Position numbers and translations under genes: made by a program
Notes under the pieces: generated by a model
Told to the model about the DNA's origin: nothing
Seen by the model: the letters and a program-made list of their open reading frames with translations, nothing else
Database searches by the model: none
Part shown: positions 12,545 to 32,789 of the stretch, piece by piece
Position numbering within the stretch: position 1 is the first letter of the stretch
Layout: every line of letters starts with the position of its first letter
Source of the DNA: Myxococcota bacterium
Lineage (GTDB): Bacteria > Myxococcota_A > Bradymonadia > UBA7976 > UBA1532
Direction: 5' to 3'
Assembly: GCA_963169045.1 (NCBI GenBank)
Contig: CAUJDF010000058.1
Span: 124,001 to 188,000, forward strand
Length of the DNA stretch: 64,000 nucleotides

Positions 12545-13708
12545 GTGCGGCGAAGCCTCATCCCCTTCTCGGTCTTCGCCCTCGCGGGCGTGGTCGTCTC
12601 CCACCTGCTCGTCGAGCAGCACATCGCGGTGAAGTTCGCGGGCGCCGGCGACACCGGCATCTGCGCCGCCGCCCAGGGCTTCTCGTGCGCGGCGGCGGCG
12701 CTCAGCCGATGGAGCACCCTCGGCGACCTGCCGATCGCGGCGCTCGGCGAGGCGTTCTACGCCACGTTCCTCGTGCTCGCGCTCGTCGGCGGCCTGCGAC
12801 GGACGCCGCTCGGCGGCCTCGACGGCGTGTTCCTCGGCGGATCGCTGCTCGCGGTCGGTTACTCGGTCTTCCTCCTGACGGTGAGCCTGAAGGGCGGCTA
12901 CGTCTGCCCCCTCTGCTTCGCGCTGTACATCGTCAACGTCGGCCTGCTCGTCACGGCGCTCGTCGGCCATGCCGAGAAGATCGGCGCCGCGCTCAAGCAC
13001 CTGCCGAAGGCCCTCGGTACGCCCGCGTTCTTCAGCGCGCTCGGGCTGATGCTCGTCGCGACGCTGGTCACCCAGGGCGTGTACGCCAACCGCGCCGCCG
13101 CCGAGCGGGCCGCGCGCCGCGTGGAGCAGGCACAGCAGCCTGCGCCGCCGGCGGTCGTCGACATCGATCCCGGCGACAGCCCCGCGAAGGGACCGGCGAA
13201 CGCGCCGGTGGTCGTCGTCGAGTTCAGCGACTTCGAGTGTCCCTTCTGCAGAAAGTTGACGGAGACCCTGCACGAGGCCAGCAGGCTCTACCCGGACGTG
13301 CGCATCCACTTCCGGCACTTTCCGATGGATCAGGCCTGCAACCCCGCGATCACACAGCCCTTTCACAGGCACGCGTGCCTCGCGGCCTACGCGGCGGACT
13401 GCGCCGAGCGCCACGGGCGCTTCTGGGAGATGCACGACCGTCTGTTCGCCAACAACGCCGACCTGTCGCGGTCGAAGCTGCTCGAGCTCGCGCGCGAGAT
13501 CGGCCTCGACGTCGAGAGCTTCGACAAGTGCCTCGACGACCCCGACATCCAGGCGGCCGTGCGACGGGACGCCGAGGCGGGCATCGCCCTGCAGGTGCAG
13601 GGCACGCCCACCTTCTTCGTCAACGGGCGGCGCTCGATGGGGGCGAAGCTCACCCCCGAGCAGATGGCGGAGCTCTTCCGCGGGATGGCGGCCGAGAAGA
13701 AGCCCTGA
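12545..13708 (+). CDS. VKOR-DsbA fusion, disulfide bond formation
   Basis: A 387-aa membrane protein. Residues 1-180 are a bacterial vitamin K epoxide reductase homologue with four or more helices, the loop pair Cys40 and Cys48, and the membrane CPLC motif (121-124). Residues about 205-385 are a DsbA-like thioredoxin domain with active-site CPFC (232-235) and cis-Pro in QGTPTFFV. The fused protein should pass electrons from substrate cysteines to quinone and replaces DsbA plus DsbB. The GTG start at 12545 is one base after the stop of the Cys-rich MepA-like lipoprotein, so the two form an operon. Confidence 0.93.
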   Translation: MRRSLIPFSVFALAGVVVSHLLVEQHIAVKFAGAGDTGICAAAQGFSCAAAALSRWSTLGDLPIAALGEAFYATFLVLALVGGLRRTPLGGLDGVFLGGSLLAVGYSVFLLTVSLKGGYVCPLCFALYIVNVGLLVTALVGHAEKIGAALKHLPKALGTPAFFSALGLMLVATLVTQGVYANRAAAERAARRVEQAQQPAPPAVVDIDPGDSPAKGPANAPVVVVEFSDFECPFCRKLTETLHEASRLYPDVRIHFRHFPMDQACNPAITQPFHRHACLAAYAADCAERHGRFWEMHDRLFANNADLSRSKLLELAREIGLDVESFDKCLDDPDIQAAVRRDAEAGIALQVQGTPTFFVNGRRSMGAKLTPEQMAELFRGMAAEKKP

Positions 13709-22277: not shown

Positions 22278-23306
22278 TCAGGAAAAAAGCGACAGCTGTC
22301 CGTCGTCGGGCGGCGGTCGCCGGAACGGGCTCGGCGCCGGCAGCGGCGGGTGCTCGCCGTAACCGAGGCGACGTCGGGTCTGTTCGAACAGACCGCGCAC
22401 GATCTCCGCGTATTCGCCCTCGCCCCGCATGCGGCTGCCGAAGCGCGGGTCGTTGCGCGCGCCCGCGCGCGTCTCCTCGACGCGGCGCAGCACCCGCTCG
22501 GCGCGGTCCGGGAGCGCCGCGCGCAGGCGCTTCTCGAAGACGCCCGCCACCGGGCCGGGCAGGCGCAGGAGCACGGTGCCCGCCCACTGCGCCCCGGCCT
22601 CGCGCGCGCGCGCCAGGATCTCGGCCATCTGCCCGTCGCTCAGGCCGGGGATCACCGGCGCCACGTTCACGCCCACCGGAATGCCCGCCGCCGCGAGGCG
22701 CCGGATGGCCTCGATCCGCCGCGTCGGCGGGGGCACGTACGGCTCGAGGGCGCGCGCGTGGGCCGGGTCGATGAACGGCACGCTGATCGTGACCGCGACG
22801 TGCGCCTCGTCGCGCAACCGCGCGAGCACGTCGACGTCGCGCTCCACGAGCGGCGACTTGGTGATGATGCCGACGGGGTTGCGGAACGCGGCGCAGACCT
22901 CGAGGCAGCGCCGCGTCAGGCGGTAGGAGGCCTCGAGCGGCTGATAGCAGTCGGTGTTGCCGCTGACGCAGACGAGCTCGCCCTGCCAGTCGCGGCGGCG
23001 GAAGCGCGCCTCGAGCAAGGCCGGCGCTTCGGGCTTGACGACGATCTTGCGCTCGAAGTCCGTCCCGGCGCCGAAGCTCAGGAATTCGTGGGAGGGGCGG
23101 GCGTAGCAGTACGCGCAGCCGTGGAAACAGCCCCGGTACGGGTTGAGGCCGTACTTGAACGGGATGTCGGGGCTGTCGTTGACCGAGAGGATCTCGCGGG
23201 TGTGGTCGTGGAAGACCTCGAGGCGGGCCGGCGGCGGCTCGCCGAGCCAGTCGACGTCGGTGGTGGCCCACGGGTTCGGCGGGTTGTCGACGCGGGAGAG
23301 GCTCAT
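22278..23306 (-). CDS. Radical SAM protein, PA0069/SPL-related family
   Basis: A 342-aa cytoplasmic protein with the iron-sulfur motif Cys-x3-Cys-x2-Cys in NPYRGCFHGCAYCYARPSHE (about residues 55-75). It then has GNTDCYQPLE, ITKSPLVERD and FIDP, all typical of the PA0069/Rv2578c group related to spore photoproduct lyase. The reaction of this group is unknown; a role in DNA or RNA repair is often guessed. The start ATG gives the usual N-terminal length. No partner gene suggests the substrate. Confidence 0.9.
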   Translation of the reverse strand: MSLSRVDNPPNPWATTDVDWLGEPPPARLEVFHDHTREILSVNDSPDIPFKYGLNPYRGCFHGCAYCYARPSHEFLSFGAGTDFERKIVVKPEAPALLEARFRRRDWQGELVCVSGNTDCYQPLEASYRLTRRCLEVCAAFRNPVGIITKSPLVERDVDVLARLRDEAHVAVTISVPFIDPAHARALEPYVPPPTRRIEAIRRLAAAGIPVGVNVAPVIPGLSDGQMAEILARAREAGAQWAGTVLLRLPGPVAGVFEKRLRAALPDRAERVLRRVEETRAGARNDPRFGSRMRGEGEYAEIVRGLFEQTRRRLGYGEHPPLPAPSPFRRPPPDDGQLSLFS

Positions 23307-23342: not shown

Positions 23343-24647
23343 TCAGTGAATGCAGGCGCTGGGGCACGCGCGCGGCAGGTTCTTCTGCAACGCCTGGAAA
23401 TCGGGAAGGAATCCGGCGCCGAAGGGGCCGGGGAAGCTCGCCTCCCAGTCGTCGGCGCAGAGATCGGCGACGGCGAACTCGCGGCCGCGCCAGGTGCCGG
23501 CGATGCGGATGGGGCGGTTCTCGGGGATGCACCAGTTGCGGCGCATGGTGTGGAGCGCCGTCAGGTTCCAGAGCGTCTCGCGGAGGGCACGCTCCCGCGG
23601 CGGTCGCCCGGCGCCGATCGCCGCCTCGTCGATGCGGACGTAGGGGTCGACGAGCCGCAGCCCTTCGGGCACGAGCAGGCTGTTGTGGCACCCGGGATCG
23701 ACGCGCAGGTTGCTCAGCATGGCCGCCGTGTGCTGCACCTGCAGCCCGAGGTAGGGCGTGAGGCCGTGCGCCAGCCACGCAGCCCCGAGCAGCGACGCCG
23801 CCCGCCCGGCCGCCGCCGGACCGTACCACGGGCGCCGCGCCGCGGAGAGCCAGGCCACGGCGATCGCCCCGGCGGCGGCGAGCTTGAGCAGCGTGATCGG
23901 CGAGGCCAACGCGCCGTGGAGCGCCGTGTCGGCCGCGATCACCGCCGCCGCGCCCGCCGCGATCCCCCACCGCCGCCGGAAGCCCCGCCGCCAGCGCACG
24001 GCCTGCCGCGGTGTCACCGTCGCCACGTAGCCCGAAATCATCACCAGGCCGAAGGCCGGCTCGAACGTCACGGTGATCGGCAGATGGAACAGGAGACCAA
24101 GCGGCCACATCAATGCGTGACGGCGTAGGATCAACACCGCGATCGCGAGCTCCTGCACGACGACGAGCGCCGGCAGCGCGACCTCGCCGTCCATGGAGGG
24201 CAGCGCCGGGTAGTGAGCGACGAACTGCGCCCAGGCGTGCTGCGCGCAGCTCACCGCGGGGTCGAGGAAGTCGCGGTTGACCTTGTGCAGGGCGGCGAGC
24301 AGGTAGGTGCCGGCGGTGAGCAGCCGCACCGCGTCGAGCACGAAGCGCGGGCGCGCCGCCGCCAGGCCCGCCGTCGCCGCGGCGGCCACCCATGCGAGGT
24401 ACATCGACTGCGTCAGGACGTCGCGCAGCCCGAAGAGCGGCCAGAGCGTAGCGCCCAGGGCGAGCGCGAAGGCCGCCGCGCAAGGCCGCGCCATGATGGC
24501 GGCCGCGGCGACGACGTGCGCCACACGTGGGAGCGTCCAGTCCCGCTCGTCGAAGTCCGGCAGCAGCGCATGGACGAAGAGCGCGACCGCGTAGGCGCGC
24601 GCCCAGGCGTCAGTGCGCCGGTCGCGCCGCAGCCAGGCGCTCTCCAC
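23343..24647 (-). CDS. HTTM-like multi-pass membrane protein
   Basis: A 434-aa protein with about eight to ten hydrophobic segments in residues 15-320 and a soluble C-terminal part of about 115 residues. The segment TYLLAALHKVNRDFLDPAVS is the signature seen in HTTM proteins, the bacterial relatives of vitamin-K-dependent gamma-carboxylase. The C-terminal part has CHNSLLVPEG and MRRNWCIPENRPI. The GTG at 24647 is seven bases after the stop of a possible tiny hydrophobic ORF, which itself overlaps the end of a Cys-rich lipoprotein gene, so the three may be one operon. Activity cannot be assigned. Confidence 0.8.
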   Translation of the reverse strand: MESAWLRRDRRTDAWARAYAVALFVHALLPDFDERDWTLPRVAHVVAAAAIMARPCAAAFALALGATLWPLFGLRDVLTQSMYLAWVAAAATAGLAAARPRFVLDAVRLLTAGTYLLAALHKVNRDFLDPAVSCAQHAWAQFVAHYPALPSMDGEVALPALVVVQELAIAVLILRRHALMWPLGLLFHLPITVTFEPAFGLVMISGYVATVTPRQAVRWRRGFRRRWGIAAGAAAVIAADTALHGALASPITLLKLAAAGAIAVAWLSAARRPWYGPAAAGRAASLLGAAWLAHGLTPYLGLQVQHTAAMLSNLRVDPGCHNSLLVPEGLRLVDPYVRIDEAAIGAGRPPRERALRETLWNLTALHTMRRNWCIPENRPIRIAGTWRGREFAVADLCADDWEASFPGPFGAGFLPDFQALQKNLPRACPSACIH

Positions 24648-24653
24648 GAGCGC

Positions 24654-24758
24654 TCAGCGCAGGACGAGGATCGCCGGCACCGCGACGGGCGCCACCACCG
24701 GTCCGAGCGTCGGCAGCAGCGGCAGGAGCGACAACAGCCAGAAGGACGAGACGATCAC
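24654..24758 (-). CDS. Possible 34-codon hydrophobic peptide
   Basis: A GTG at 24758-24756 overlaps the stop of the Cys-rich lipoprotein gene as GTGA, and the frame closes at TGA 24654, seven bases before the next GTG start. The product is almost wholly hydrophobic ([18 protein letters not shown]... ending AILVLR), enough for one membrane span. The tight coupling on both sides argues for translation. The GC-rich composition makes chance open frames common, so it is only a candidate. Confidence 0.35.
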   Translation of the reverse strand: MIVSSFWLLSLLPLLPTLGPVVAPVAVPAILVLR

Positions 24759-26242
24759 TGACACTGCCCCGATCCGACGCAGGCGCGGCCGCCGCACCGA
24801 CTGGGATAGTGCGCCGCGCAGTTGCACCAGTTGCCGTTCGGGCAACAGAACTGCCAGCCGCACGCGTTGCAGTCGCGGAAGAGCCGGCCGTCGCCGTTGT
24901 TGCAGCCCTCCCACTGGCAGCTGCCGTTGCAGCTGCGCATGCCGCACTCGCCGCAGGCCCCGCTGCTGCCGGGCGCGCAGACGCCCTGGCCGTCGCAGCC
25001 GCCCCACCGGCAACTGTCGTTGCAGCGCTGCGTGCCGCAGTTGCCGCAGCCGCGCGACTCGCCGGGCCGGCACTCGCCGCCGCCCTCGCAGGGCCCCCAC
25101 CGGCAGTCGTCGCCGCATCGCCGCACACCGCAGTTGCCGCAGGCCTCCTCGGCGCCGGCGCGGCACTCGCCCTGGCCGCCGCACTCGCCGAAGTCGCCCC
25201 ACTGCCCGTCGCCGCCGCACGTCCGCGCCTCGTTGCCGCAGAAGCCGCAGGTGCGCTCCTCGCGGTCGCCCGGCGTGCACACGCCGCAGTCGCCCTTGCC
25301 GACGCAGGCCGTGCCCGCGTTGCAGGCCAGGGGCGCGCCCCAGGCGGTGCAGCCCCCCTCGCGCACGCACGTCTCGACGCTGGCGGCGTCCGCCGTGCAG
25401 CGCCGCGCCCCGAGCTCGCAGACGTCGACGCAGGACTCGACGCAGTCGCCTGCGGCGCAGGTGGTGCCCGCCTCGCACGCCTCGACGGCGCCCCAGACGA
25501 AGCAGCCCGCCGGCCCGCGGACGCACGCCTGACGGCCGCGCTCGAAGCAGCGCGTCTCGCCCTCGCCGCACTCGTCGGCGCAGGCCACCGCGCACCCCTG
25601 GCCCGGCCGACACACGGCGCCCTCGGCGCAGGCCTCCGGCTCGGCCCAGTCGAGGCAGCCCGTCTCGAGGCGGACGCAGCGCTGGACGTTGGTGCCGTCG
25701 AAGCAGGCGAGCTCGCCCTCGCGGCACTGGTCGGAGCAGGCGCCCTCGAAGACACAGCGGCCGCCCGAGCACTCCTCCCCGTCGGGACAGCCGTTCGAGT
25801 CGGCCCAGCCCGGGCATTGTCCGTCGGCGGTGCAGGTGGTGAAGGCGTAGGCACCGAGGCAGCGGCCGTCGCCGACGTTACAGCCGACCGCGCAGTCGTC
25901 GAGGCAGGCGCCGGACTGGCAGACGGTGCCGCCCTCGCACGGCACGGGCGGCCCCCAGACGCCGCATCCGTCCTCTTCGGCGGCGGTGCAGGTCTGTACG
26001 CCCTCGGGGGCGCAGCGGCTCACGCCGGGCAGGCACGCGTCGCCGCAGGCGCTCACGCAGGCCCCGGTCCGGCACTCCGAGCCCTCGGGGCAGGACTGGG
26101 GCAGCGTCCAACGGCCGTCGTCGGTGCAGCGCTGGGCGGCCCCCTCGACGCACCGCCGCTGCCCCGCGAGGCACTCGGTCTCGGTGTCGCCCTTGGCGCA
26201 GCCGATCACGAGCAGCAGAATCCAGGCCGGACGCACGCGCAT
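24755..26242 (-). CDS. Very Cys-rich lipoprotein with tandem modules
   Basis: From ATG 26242 the 495-aa product has a lipoprotein signal (Cys15) and then almost only Cys-rich modules. Residues about 20-320 hold repeats of roughly 45 aa of the form C..G..RC..........C..........C.....C..G.C; residues about 330-495 hold shorter repeats such as CGNCGxxRCxxxCRWGxC. About one residue in seven is Cys, with regular spacing that implies disulfide-bonded knots rather than zinc binding. No catalytic motif. An ATG at 26254 is an alternative start. It is followed by a tiny ORF and an HTTM-like membrane gene in the same direction, and is divergent from moaB. Confidence 0.85.
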
Positions 26243-26274
26243 TTTCGCGAGCATACCGCAGGCAGGAGGTTACG

Positions 26275-26802
26275 TTGAGCGCCGATCGACCATTCGTCCC
26301 CGTCGGCTGCGCCGTGCTGACGGTCTCAGACACGCGCACGCTCGCGAGCGACACGAGCGGGCAGCTGGCCGCCGACCATCTCGTGGCGATGGGCCACGTG
26401 CTGCGCGATCGCCGCATCGTCGTCGACGAGGTGGAGGCGATCCGCGCCGTGGTCCGCGGCTGGATCGCCGATCCCGCCGTCGACGTCGTCGTCACCACCG
26501 GCGGCTCCGGGGTCACGGCGCGCGACGTCACCCCCGAGGCGCTCGCGCCGCTCGGCACGCGCCACATCCCGGGCTTCGGCGAGCTCTTCCGCTGGCTGAG
26601 CTACGCCGACATCGGCGCGTCGACGATCCAGTCGCGCGCCGATGCCTGGGTGTGCGAAGGCACGCTGGTGTTCGTGCTGCCGGGATCGACGGGGGCGGTG
26701 CGGCTGGCGATGGAGAAGATCCTGGTGGGCCAGCTCGACAGTCGCACGCGGCCGTGCAACTTCGTCGAGCTGTTGCCGCGCATCAGGGGCGAGGCGCGGT
26801 AG
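26275..26802 (+). CDS. moaB: Molybdenum cofactor biosynthesis protein B
   Basis: A 175-aa MogA/MoaB-type protein. The N-terminal [10 protein letters not shown], the [16 protein letters not shown] active-site loop and the later [17 protein letters not shown] are family hallmarks. MoaB-type enzymes adenylylate molybdopterin before metal insertion. The start is TTG at 26275, supported by AGGAGGT ending four bases upstream; no ATG or GTG is available before the conserved N-terminus. No other moa or moe gene is in the window. Confidence 0.93.
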
Positions 26803-26808
26803 AGGGGC

Positions 26809-27753
26809 TCACTGGCCGAAGCAGGCCTGGATGTCCGACTCGCCGCAGCCCGTGCAGTCGCGGGCACCCTCGCCGCAGTACTCCTGGGCGCAGCCGGTGG
26901 CGCACGCCTCATCGCCACCGCACTCGAAACCGCAGTTGACGGCCTGGCAGAACACGGCGGTGTTGCAGTTGCCACCGCCGCCACCGCCGCCCACGCCACC
27001 GCCGGCGCCACCGTTGCCACCATCGATGCCGGTCAGGCACCGCGCGGCGTCGTCGCAGCTGTCGGACGCGTTCACGCAGACCGCCACCTCCTGCAGGCCC
27101 TGCGACTCGCAGCTCTGAACGCACTCGCCCTGGCTGCCCACATCGGCGCCGCACTCGGAGAGCCGCGAGCAGGCCGAGGCACAGTCGCCGCTGCCGCCGC
27201 CACCGCCGCCACCGCCGCCGCCACCGCCGATGCCCTCGCAGGCGGACGCGTCCTGCTGGGCGTACTGACGGAGCGCCGCGCAGTTGTTGGCGACGGCCGC
27301 GCCGGCCTGACCGCGCTCCTCGTCGCTCGCCTCTTCGCAACCGGGCGCGCACTCGCTCTGAGCGGCCTGGGCGATATCATCCTGCGAGACGCCCTCGACG
27401 CCGCAGACGTCGATGATGCAGCCGAGCAACTGGACACACAGGTTGCCGCAGGCATCGGAAGGCAGCGGCGTCCCGTTGCCGCCGCCGAAGGGGTTGCCCC
27501 CGCCGTTCGCGCCACCGCCGCCACCGCCGGCACCGCCGCCGGCACCGCCGCCGCCGCCGCCCTGGCCGCCGCCGTTCTGGCCGCCGCCGTTCTGGCTGCC
27601 GCCGCCGAACAGCTTGCCGACGAAGTTGCCGCCGATGCTGCCGCCGCCGTTGCCGCCGCCGTCGTCGTCGTCGTCGTCGCTCTGACAGCCCGAGAACGTC
27701 ACGCCGAGCGCGGCCACGAGGTACGTGGCGTTGCGGAGGGTCAAGATCGCCAT
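26809..27753 (-). CDS. Gly-rich, Cys-containing lipoprotein of unknown function
   Basis: A 314-aa lipoprotein (Cys23 in VTFSGCQSDDD). Behind the lipidated Cys come an Asp stretch and about 70 residues dominated by Gly with some Asn and Gln. Three Cys-rich segments follow, separated by a second and third poly-Gly stretch; each has pairs such as CGNLCVQLLGC, CASACSRLSECG and CQAVNCGFECGGDEAC. This looks like helical hairpins held by disulfides, as in other myxobacterial lipoproteins with CxxxC repeats. No function can be given. It converges on moaB with a six-base gap. Confidence 0.8.
   Translation of the reverse strand: MAILTLRNATYLVAALGVTFSGCQSDDDDDDGGGNGGGSIGGNFVGKLFGGGSQNGGGQNGGGQGGGGGGAGGGAGGGGGGANGGGNPFGGGNGTPLPSDACGNLCVQLLGCIIDVCGVEGVSQDDIAQAAQSECAPGCEEASDEERGQAGAAVANNCAALRQYAQQDASACEGIGGGGGGGGGGGGSGDCASACSRLSECGADVGSQGECVQSCESQGLQEVAVCVNASDSCDDAARCLTGIDGGNGGAGGGVGGGGGGGNCNTAVFCQAVNCGFECGGDEACATGCAQEYCGEGARDCTGCGESDIQACFGQ
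27458..27655 (-). repeat. Poly-Gly coding low-complexity tract
   Basis: GCC/ACC-type triplets on the plus strand (Gly codons on the minus strand) make a simple-sequence tract in the Gly-rich lipoprotein. It is unlike the surrounding codons and probably variable in length. Confidence 0.8.
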
Positions 27754-31643: not shown

Positions 31644-32789
31644 CTACTGGAGCCCGAGCCCCCAACGGACGATCACCTCGTTCATCACCTCCGACGTGCC
31701 GCCGCCGATGGCGAGCAGTCGCGCGTCGCGGCTGAGGCGCTCGGCGCGCGACTCGCGCATGTAGCCCATGCCGCCGAGGATCTGCACCGCCTCGCGGCAG
31801 ACGCTCTCCGCGGTGCGCGCGGCGAAGTTCTTGGCCGCCGAGACCTCCGCCGGGATGGCCTCGCCCGCGGCGACACGACGGGCGACGGCGTAGTTGAGCT
31901 CCCGGGTGGCGAGCGTCTCGGTGGCCATGTCGGCGAGCTTGTGGCGGATGACCTGGAAACGAGCGATGGGGCGACCGAACGCCTCGCGCTCGCGGGCATA
32001 GGCGATCGCGTCGGCGAGGCAGATCTCGGCGGTGGCGTGGCCCATGAAGGCGAGGGCGAGGCGCTCCTGCTGGAAGTTGCGCATGAGCGCGACGAAGCCG
32101 CTGCCCTCCGGGCCGATACGGTTCCCGGCGGGGACGCGCACGTCGGCGAACGCGAGCTCGGCGGTGTCGCTCGCGCGCCACCCGGTCTTCTTGAGCGCGC
32201 GCGACACCTCGAAGCCGGGCGTGCCGCGCTCGACGACGAAGAAGGTCAACCCGCCGTGCGGGTCGTCGCCCGTCCGCGCGAGGACCGTCACGAGGTCGGC
32301 GCGGCAACCGCTCGTGATGAACATCTTGGCGCCGTTGAGCACGTACGTCTCGCCATCGCGGACCGCGCGCGTCCGCACCCCGGCCACGTCGCTGCCGGTG
32401 CCGGGCTCGGTGATCGCGAGCGCGGCGACCCGCTCGCCGGCGAGCACCGGCGGGACGAAGCGCCGCTTCTGCTCTTCATCGCCCAGAAAGAGGATGGGCG
32501 GCAGCGCGATGCCGTGGGAGCCGAGCCCGGCGACGACGCCCGTCGTGCCGCCCCAGAGCAGGCCCTCGATGCCGACGAGCGGTAGGAGGGCGTCCTCTCC
32601 AGCGCCGCCATAGGCCTCGGGGAAGCCGGCGCCGAGGATGCCCGCAGCCGCCGCGCGGCCATACAGCTCGCGCGGGAAGAGCTCGGCCTCCTCCCACTCG
32701 AGCGCATGCGGCTCGATCTCTCGCTGCGCGAACTTCCGACAGAGGTCCCGGTACGGTCCGTAGGGTGCTTCCAGCGATTTCGCTTTCAT
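31644..32789 (-). CDS. Acyl-CoA dehydrogenase
   Basis: A 381-aa FAD enzyme. It shows the signatures ALAITEPGTGSDVAG (about residue 125), GAKMFITSGC, the FQQERLALA helix, and the C-terminal QILGGMGYMRESRAERLSRD with the Glu region near the active site; the catalytic base region IGGGTSEVMNEVI is also present. It oxidises acyl-CoA to enoyl-CoA in the cytoplasm. The ATG at 32789 starts at the usual helix. It is convergent with the acyl-CoA ligase gene. Confidence 0.95.
   Translation of the reverse strand: MKAKSLEAPYGPYRDLCRKFAQREIEPHALEWEEAELFPRELYGRAAAAGILGAGFPEAYGGAGEDALLPLVGIEGLLWGGTTGVVAGLGSHGIALPPILFLGDEEQKRRFVPPVLAGERVAALAITEPGTGSDVAGVRTRAVRDGETYVLNGAKMFITSGCRADLVTVLARTGDDPHGGLTFFVVERGTPGFEVSRALKKTGWRASDTAELAFADVRVPAGNRIGPEGSGFVALMRNFQQERLALAFMGHATAEICLADAIAYAREREAFGRPIARFQVIRHKLADMATETLATRELNYAVARRVAAGEAIPAEVSAAKNFAARTAESVCREAVQILGGMGYMRESRAERLSRDARLLAIGGGTSEVMNEVIVRWGLGLQ

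Follow-up and report, generated by a model that had tools for sequence, protein, structure and literature searches.

A probable remote branch of the GGCX/HTTM fold in Myxococcota and the cysteine-rich lipoprotein encoded beside it

Three closely spaced genes on one strand of a 64,000-nucleotide stretch of a Myxococcota genome (the window) raise the question of whether a membrane protein and a Cys-rich lipoprotein belong to a dedicated maturation system, or whether the membrane protein has a function that is independent of its neighbor. The preliminary description of this locus labeled the membrane protein as HTTM and suggested that it acts on the lipoprotein, with a 34-codon hydrophobic ORF bridging the two genes in one tight operon. 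The features on which the analysis rests are as follows.

26275..26802, plus strand: moaB, the divergent neighbor (NCBIfam TIGR02667 above its cut-off)
24755..26254, minus strand: Cys-rich lipoprotein P0002, 499 aa from the first ATG and 495 from Met5 (ORF and translation)
24654..24758, minus strand: 34-codon hydrophobic ORF P0003, GTG start at 24758 and TGA at 24656-24654
23343..24647, minus strand: membrane protein P0001, GTG start at 24647, 434 aa, GGCX/HTTM-like fold
24276..24287, minus strand: H121-K122-x-N124 motif of P0001; K122 aligns with the GGCX base Lys218 and is invariant (40/40)
24246..24248, minus strand: Cys134 of P0001, conserved in the P0001 family and in 13/13 sampled sister proteins
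23346..23366, minus strand: C-terminus of P0001, C-P-S-A-C-I-H, in which Cys428, Cys432 and the terminal His434 are invariant
22278..23306, minus strand: PA0069-family radical SAM protein (NCBIfam NF033668 above cut-off), 36 bp downstream of the P0001 gene

The ORF list and translations confirm the positions of the lipoprotein, the 34-codon ORF and the membrane protein, all on the minus strand, and the 4-bp overlap of the hydrophobic ORF with the lipoprotein gene is borne out as GTGA at the lipoprotein stop. The lipoprotein has the 495 residues attributed to it if counting starts at Met5. Its mature part has 79 Cys among 481 residues, or about one in six. A V-I-G-C lipobox places the expected acylated Cys at residue 19 (26198-26200). 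P0002 has no Pfam or NCBIfam match and no match to the PDB by sequence, and relatives across most of its length are present in genomes of the same family. Its Cys-rich repeats have seventeen further partial matches in its own genome, on contigs C102, C42, C70, C67, C60, C82 and C56.

P0001 matches no Pfam or NCBIfam family. It gives no hit to the Pfam HTTM family (PF05090), and the seven PF05090 matches of its own genome are to other genes. Across an alignment of 40 rows (P0001 and 39 of the 42 loci from a species scan), PF05090 matches one row, at E 8e-4, and NCBIfam gives no credible name, with two single weak matches. Sequence searches of the PDB found nothing meaningful (best E 0.66 for P0001 and 0.62 for profile A2). 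An AlphaFold (AF2) model based on the 40-row alignment has a pLDDT of 90.1 and a pTM of 0.90, and its nine best Foldseek matches in the PDB are all gamma-glutamyl carboxylase (GGCX), the best with E 3e-3, probability 1.0, TM 0.46 and 12% identity. In VIA-align, 15 GGCX entries reached Z scores between 16.9 and 11.9, against 7.0 for the entry that followed, which is unrelated; the best match, 9wfc_A (Z 16.9, rmsd 6.1), has 326 aligned residues and covers residues 8-409 of the model. With respect to the propeptide-binding region of GGCX, the full model aligns up to GGCX residue 506, and the C-terminal domain alone has no Foldseek match under E 5 and no VIA-align match with Z of 2 or more among 44 chains.

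A profile of the P0001 family also gives a local match to seven HTTM sequences from the genome of the window, with a probability of 93.5% and E 2.3e-7 in a single comparison. Given the GGCX fold match and this profile match, the original family call was right in substance and lies beyond Pfam's reach: the fold and the base-lysine motif favor the HTTM label, and Pfam and NCBIfam lend it no support. We conclude that P0001 is very probably a remote member of the GGCX/HTTM fold and family, in an uncatalogued, diverging branch. Our literature search found no paper joining HTTM with myxobacteria, nor SdpB with HTTM.

Relatives of the membrane protein occur in 38 of 57 genomes, including its own. In a wider profile search, 66 of 371 Myxococcota genomes that are at least 90% complete have a match at E 1e-3, the weaker ones including sister subfamilies. 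The pattern-based species scan found 42 loci, mostly one full match per genome, with titles of Myxococcota, Myxococcales, Polyangia, Polyangiaceae or Lujinxingia, or just "bacterium", "proteobacterium" or "Deltaproteobacteria"; one of them, L092, is from Lujinxingia vulgaris TMQ2. Within this one scan, the P0001 branch is limited to Myxococcota or their kin, or to unlabeled bins.

The branch is strongly conserved at the site that corresponds to the GGCX base. Invariant in all 40 rows are K122, N124, C134, E166, H188, C320, C373, C397, C428, C432 and H434, and Phe127 and Phe199 are nearly so, among sequences whose identity to P0001 is as low as 30%. The last five Cys and His434 are likewise invariant in a 41-row alignment of the C-terminal region, and nearly all rows end in C-x-x-x-C-[IV]-H. 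In GGCX, Lys218 is the base and His160 helps to hold the Glu side chain, according to excerpts of PMC12589487. With an offset of 96, A118, H121, K122, N124 and F127 of P0001 fall onto GGCX A214, K217, K218, D220 and W223, in a register taken from the residue numbering in those excerpts and from the HTTM profile alignment. As judged by alignment, the position of the base lysine is thus kept as K122 throughout the family (40/40), and in the profile alignment K122 also meets the Lys of HTTM proteins from the same genome. The His160 column, in contrast, holds Ser in 16 of 20 family rows, Gln in two, Pro in one and a gap in one, in a register that is uncertain by about one residue on account of a preceding gap; most rows have Gln-Ser in place of N159-H160.

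Sister subfamilies in Myxococcota (L163-L175) are recognized by a motif of the AMxSNLR type and by a C-x-H/W close to the C-terminus. Three of four tested match Pfam HTTM below its cut-off and the fourth has no match, and one subfamily has tblastn relatives on eight Sinorhizobium and Rhizobium plasmids. The 13 sister proteins sampled, nine outer and four intermediate, all share K122, N124, C134, E166, F199, M310 and the near-terminal Cys (Cys432) with P0001. Unlike the P0001 family, the outer sisters keep His at the H160 place in all eight rows with letters there, with Asn at the N159 place in seven of eight. Among the intermediate ones, the two rows with letters at the H160 place both lack His, and position 188 is not His in any of the four. 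C320, C373, C397 and C428 are mostly missing from both groups. Because Cys134 and Cys432 persist in all 13 sisters and the other four Cys mostly do not, the alignments suggest a Cys134-Cys432 disulfide, with the remaining four forming two further pairs within the C-terminal domain.

The surroundings of the membrane-protein gene vary among genomes. In a tblastn survey of 42 named loci, for which the queries were six neighbors from the window and sdhC, the gene and moaB are immediate divergent neighbors in five genomes of the family, where no lipoprotein gene separates them. In 12 of the 42 loci (L082, L083, L085-L089, L092-L095 and L098) the membrane-protein gene is divergent to sdhC, a respiratory quinone enzyme gene of a succinate dehydrogenase operon, and beyond sdhC lie clusters that Pfam names sdhA and sdhB on the basis of one representative each (eight loci apiece); the neighbor table omits six of 43 loci, in which the gene finder called no membrane-protein gene. 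Downstream in the window are the PA0069-type radical SAM gene, a gene for a 301-aa protein and an APH-type kinase gene. This block recurs in L038, where the radical SAM gene adjoins the membrane-protein gene, and partly in L072 and in L040; in L040 the radical SAM gene is about 4 kb away. Just past moaB in the window (26809-27753, minus strand) there is also a Gly-rich, Cys-containing lipoprotein-like ORF with no Pfam or NCBIfam family match.

The 34-codon ORF has several coding-like properties. It shares the reading frame of P0001, its TGA being followed by two codons (6 nt) before the GTG of P0001. Mechanically, it also forms the last part of a 387-aa open frame that traverses the lipoprotein gene, so its openness alone is weak evidence. 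Its GRAVY is 1.88, against a maximum of 0.63 among the 72 mechanically called ORFs of similar size (30-45 codons) across the window, and its codon positions are coding-like (GC3 33/34, GC2 15/34). As background for the latter, we used 15,839 stop-free 34-codon windows in frames unused by 11 masked genes between 20,189 and 33,427. The GC3 and GC2 limits were passed by 18 of them, all in three places: P0003 itself (one), part of the antisense strand of the lipoprotein gene (two) and a stretch that reads like an unmasked gene (15). The rough gene finder missed a coding-like stretch at about 31977-32159 (minus strand), which presumably resembles an acyl-CoA dehydrogenase.

By eye, no P0003-like ORF was seen within 240 bp upstream of the membrane-protein gene in seven relatives. 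In L080, from another genus, the likely start codon of the membrane protein shares a GTGA with the lipoprotein stop, and in L077, of the same genus as L080, the matching codon is GTA, so the start there must be elsewhere. Judging by these start sites, the window genome may have acquired about 105 bp of coding-like sequence that now separates an ancestral start from the main part of the protein. P0003 could be a lineage-specific leader peptide, or an N-terminal extension that was interrupted. The ORF is coding-like and, so far, lineage-specific.

We compared quinone genes between genomes with and without the membrane-protein gene. Under strict cut-offs, menB counts as present in 34 of 38 genomes that have the gene against six of 19 that lack it (p 1.5e-5), and menD in 27 of 38 and seven of 19 (p 0.02). 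A looser count that accepts strong fragments (e.g., menD in G011 and G015, and menB split in G024) gives 35 of 38 versus seven of 19 for menD and 34 of 38 versus seven of 19 for menB. Without clade f4, the strict association weakens for menB (p 0.02) and is gone for menD (p 0.72), and with strong fragments counted the values are 0.06 and 0.04, respectively. VKOR, PF02621, menD and menB were all tested, and the p-values are uncorrected for the number of tests or for kinship among genomes that are not independent. Neither menB nor menD reaches the cut-off in G026 (99% complete) or in the genome of the window (95% complete), and the latter also has no MqnA-type gene. The futalosine route can be set aside, with PF02621 in none of the 57 genomes, and TIGR01474, for the ubiquinone route, was above cut-off in none of 11 genomes and is uninformative. 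The menaquinone link is therefore suggestive: it varies with how the genes are counted and which clades are included, and does not hold for the genome of the window. The stricter count leaves our assessment of the competing readings unaltered, because the clade and the own-genome exception had already been allowed for.

VKOR shows no association with the membrane-protein gene (26 of 38 genomes that have it against 14 of 19 that lack it; p 0.77), which gives no support to VKOR as a conserved partner. The genome of the window has four VKOR matches. A VKOR-DsbA fusion, presumably disulfide-forming, is encoded in the window at 12545-13708 (plus strand), about 11 kb from the lipoprotein gene.

The arrangement in the window invites the reading of an operon dedicated to maturation, whose membrane protein would modify the Cys-rich lipoprotein and whose small ORF would provide an accessory peptide. 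The shared strand and GTGA overlap agree with this, as does the lipoprotein gene directly upstream in the two genomes of another genus (GTGA overlap in L080, GTA in L077). Moreover, the C-terminal domain of the lipoprotein, found in 10 of the 57 genomes (own included, all of the window's family), was detected solely in genomes that also encode the membrane protein (10 of 38 versus none of 19; p 0.02). However, the domain was not found in the other 28 of those 38 genomes, and where both are present the genes adjoin in three of ten (the window and those two genomes) and lie on separate contigs in seven. In the five of these seven whose upstream side was read (all but G005 and G006), moaB is instead the direct upstream neighbor of the membrane-protein gene. 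The small ORF is unseen in seven relatives, and partial relatives of the lipoprotein repeats occur on seven further contigs of the same genome. Clustering gave no common membrane-protein neighbor for the seven unlinked lipoprotein loci, although the gene finder missed the lipoprotein gene in L153, L156 and L158, and a 15-row tree did not resolve a single origin of the linkage. The tight operon of the preliminary description thus stands as close coupling in the window genome and adjacency in one other genus; the neighbor survey does not extend it beyond, and the notion of a conserved three-gene system with the lipoprotein as substrate is not supported. With the two genes on separate contigs in seven of ten genomes, we reject the lipoprotein as the default dedicated substrate and regard such an operon as improbable. 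The lipoprotein is in all likelihood a local neighbor rather than an obligate substrate or partner; in the window genome, the P0001 gene appears to be translationally coupled to it, with the lipoprotein gene placed between the P0001 gene and moaB.

A direct vitamin-K-type Glu carboxylase, making gamma-carboxyglutamate on a periplasmic protein, would fit the GGCX fold and the base-lysine position, but there is no His at the position of His160, which excerpts of PMC12589487 and PMC9146348 describe as important for Glu carboxylation, and no Gla substrate or propeptide was identified; we find this reading very improbable. The same loss of His could mean that the fold was kept and enzymatic activity lost, with P0001 serving as a membrane scaffold, transporter or redox sensor whose conserved Cys form structural disulfides. 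The lack of a consistent VKOR partner and of menaquinone genes above cut-offs in the own genome point the same way. Against loss of activity stand the invariant Lys122, Asn124, Glu166 and His188 and the nearly invariant Phe127 and Phe199 at identities down to 30%, although that argument is qualified by the four intermediate sisters, in which position 188 is not His. Loss of activity is a real possibility, if short of a probable one. We tentatively favor P0001 as a quinol-dependent Lys-base enzyme, which is possible but by no means assured. In this scheme, Lys122 would deprotonate a quinol to generate a strong base, which would modify a protein or peptide on the periplasmic side, and a Cys134-Cys432 disulfide may tie the C-terminal tail to a cap above the predicted quinone pocket. 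As there is no equivalent of His160, the outcome need not be Glu carboxylation. In its favor we count the conserved base-lysine site, the divergent sdhC in 12 of 42 loci and the excess of menB and menD in genomes with the gene. We weighed against this quinol-type reading the weak Foldseek E value to GGCX, the C-terminal domain with no solved match, the residue at the His160 position, the menaquinone exceptions and the lack of a VKOR association. The fold is well supported and the chemistry we infer. Taken as a whole, a divergent GGCX/HTTM branch with quinol-type chemistry and a merely local lipoprotein is the best explanation, with roughly an even chance of being correct.

The branch differs from each of the systems to which it can be compared. 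P0001 resembles human GGCX in its overall fold and aligned base-lysine region, but is only 10-14% identical to it, is shorter, and carries the six invariant Cys and the C-x-x-x-C-[IV]-H end of its family. With Pfam HTTM proteins it shares transmembrane helices around the Lys and F-H motifs. In linaridin clusters, as described in excerpts of PMC9927463, an HTTM-type protein (crdG) is encoded beside a small secreted substrate and is assumed to act in its maturation, by a mechanism called unclear. That cluster differs from the one in the window.

The operon-based guess of a lipoprotein substrate is corrected by these results. Pfam and NCBIfam all but miss the P0001 branch, though it is well modeled and strongly conserved at the base-lysine site. 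To our knowledge, many bacterial relatives of GGCX exist and few have known reactions. It is conceivable, although we consider it rather unlikely in this full form, that a Myxococcota branch kept the quinol-activating Lys, replaced the carboxylation His and tied a C-x-H tail to the active-site cap, and that it carries out a quinol-driven modification of an envelope protein other than Glu carboxylation, beside the respiratory quinone pool. Having lost the catalytic His in nature, the branch makes it possible to ask whether the quinol chemistry of this fold serves purposes other than Glu carboxylation.
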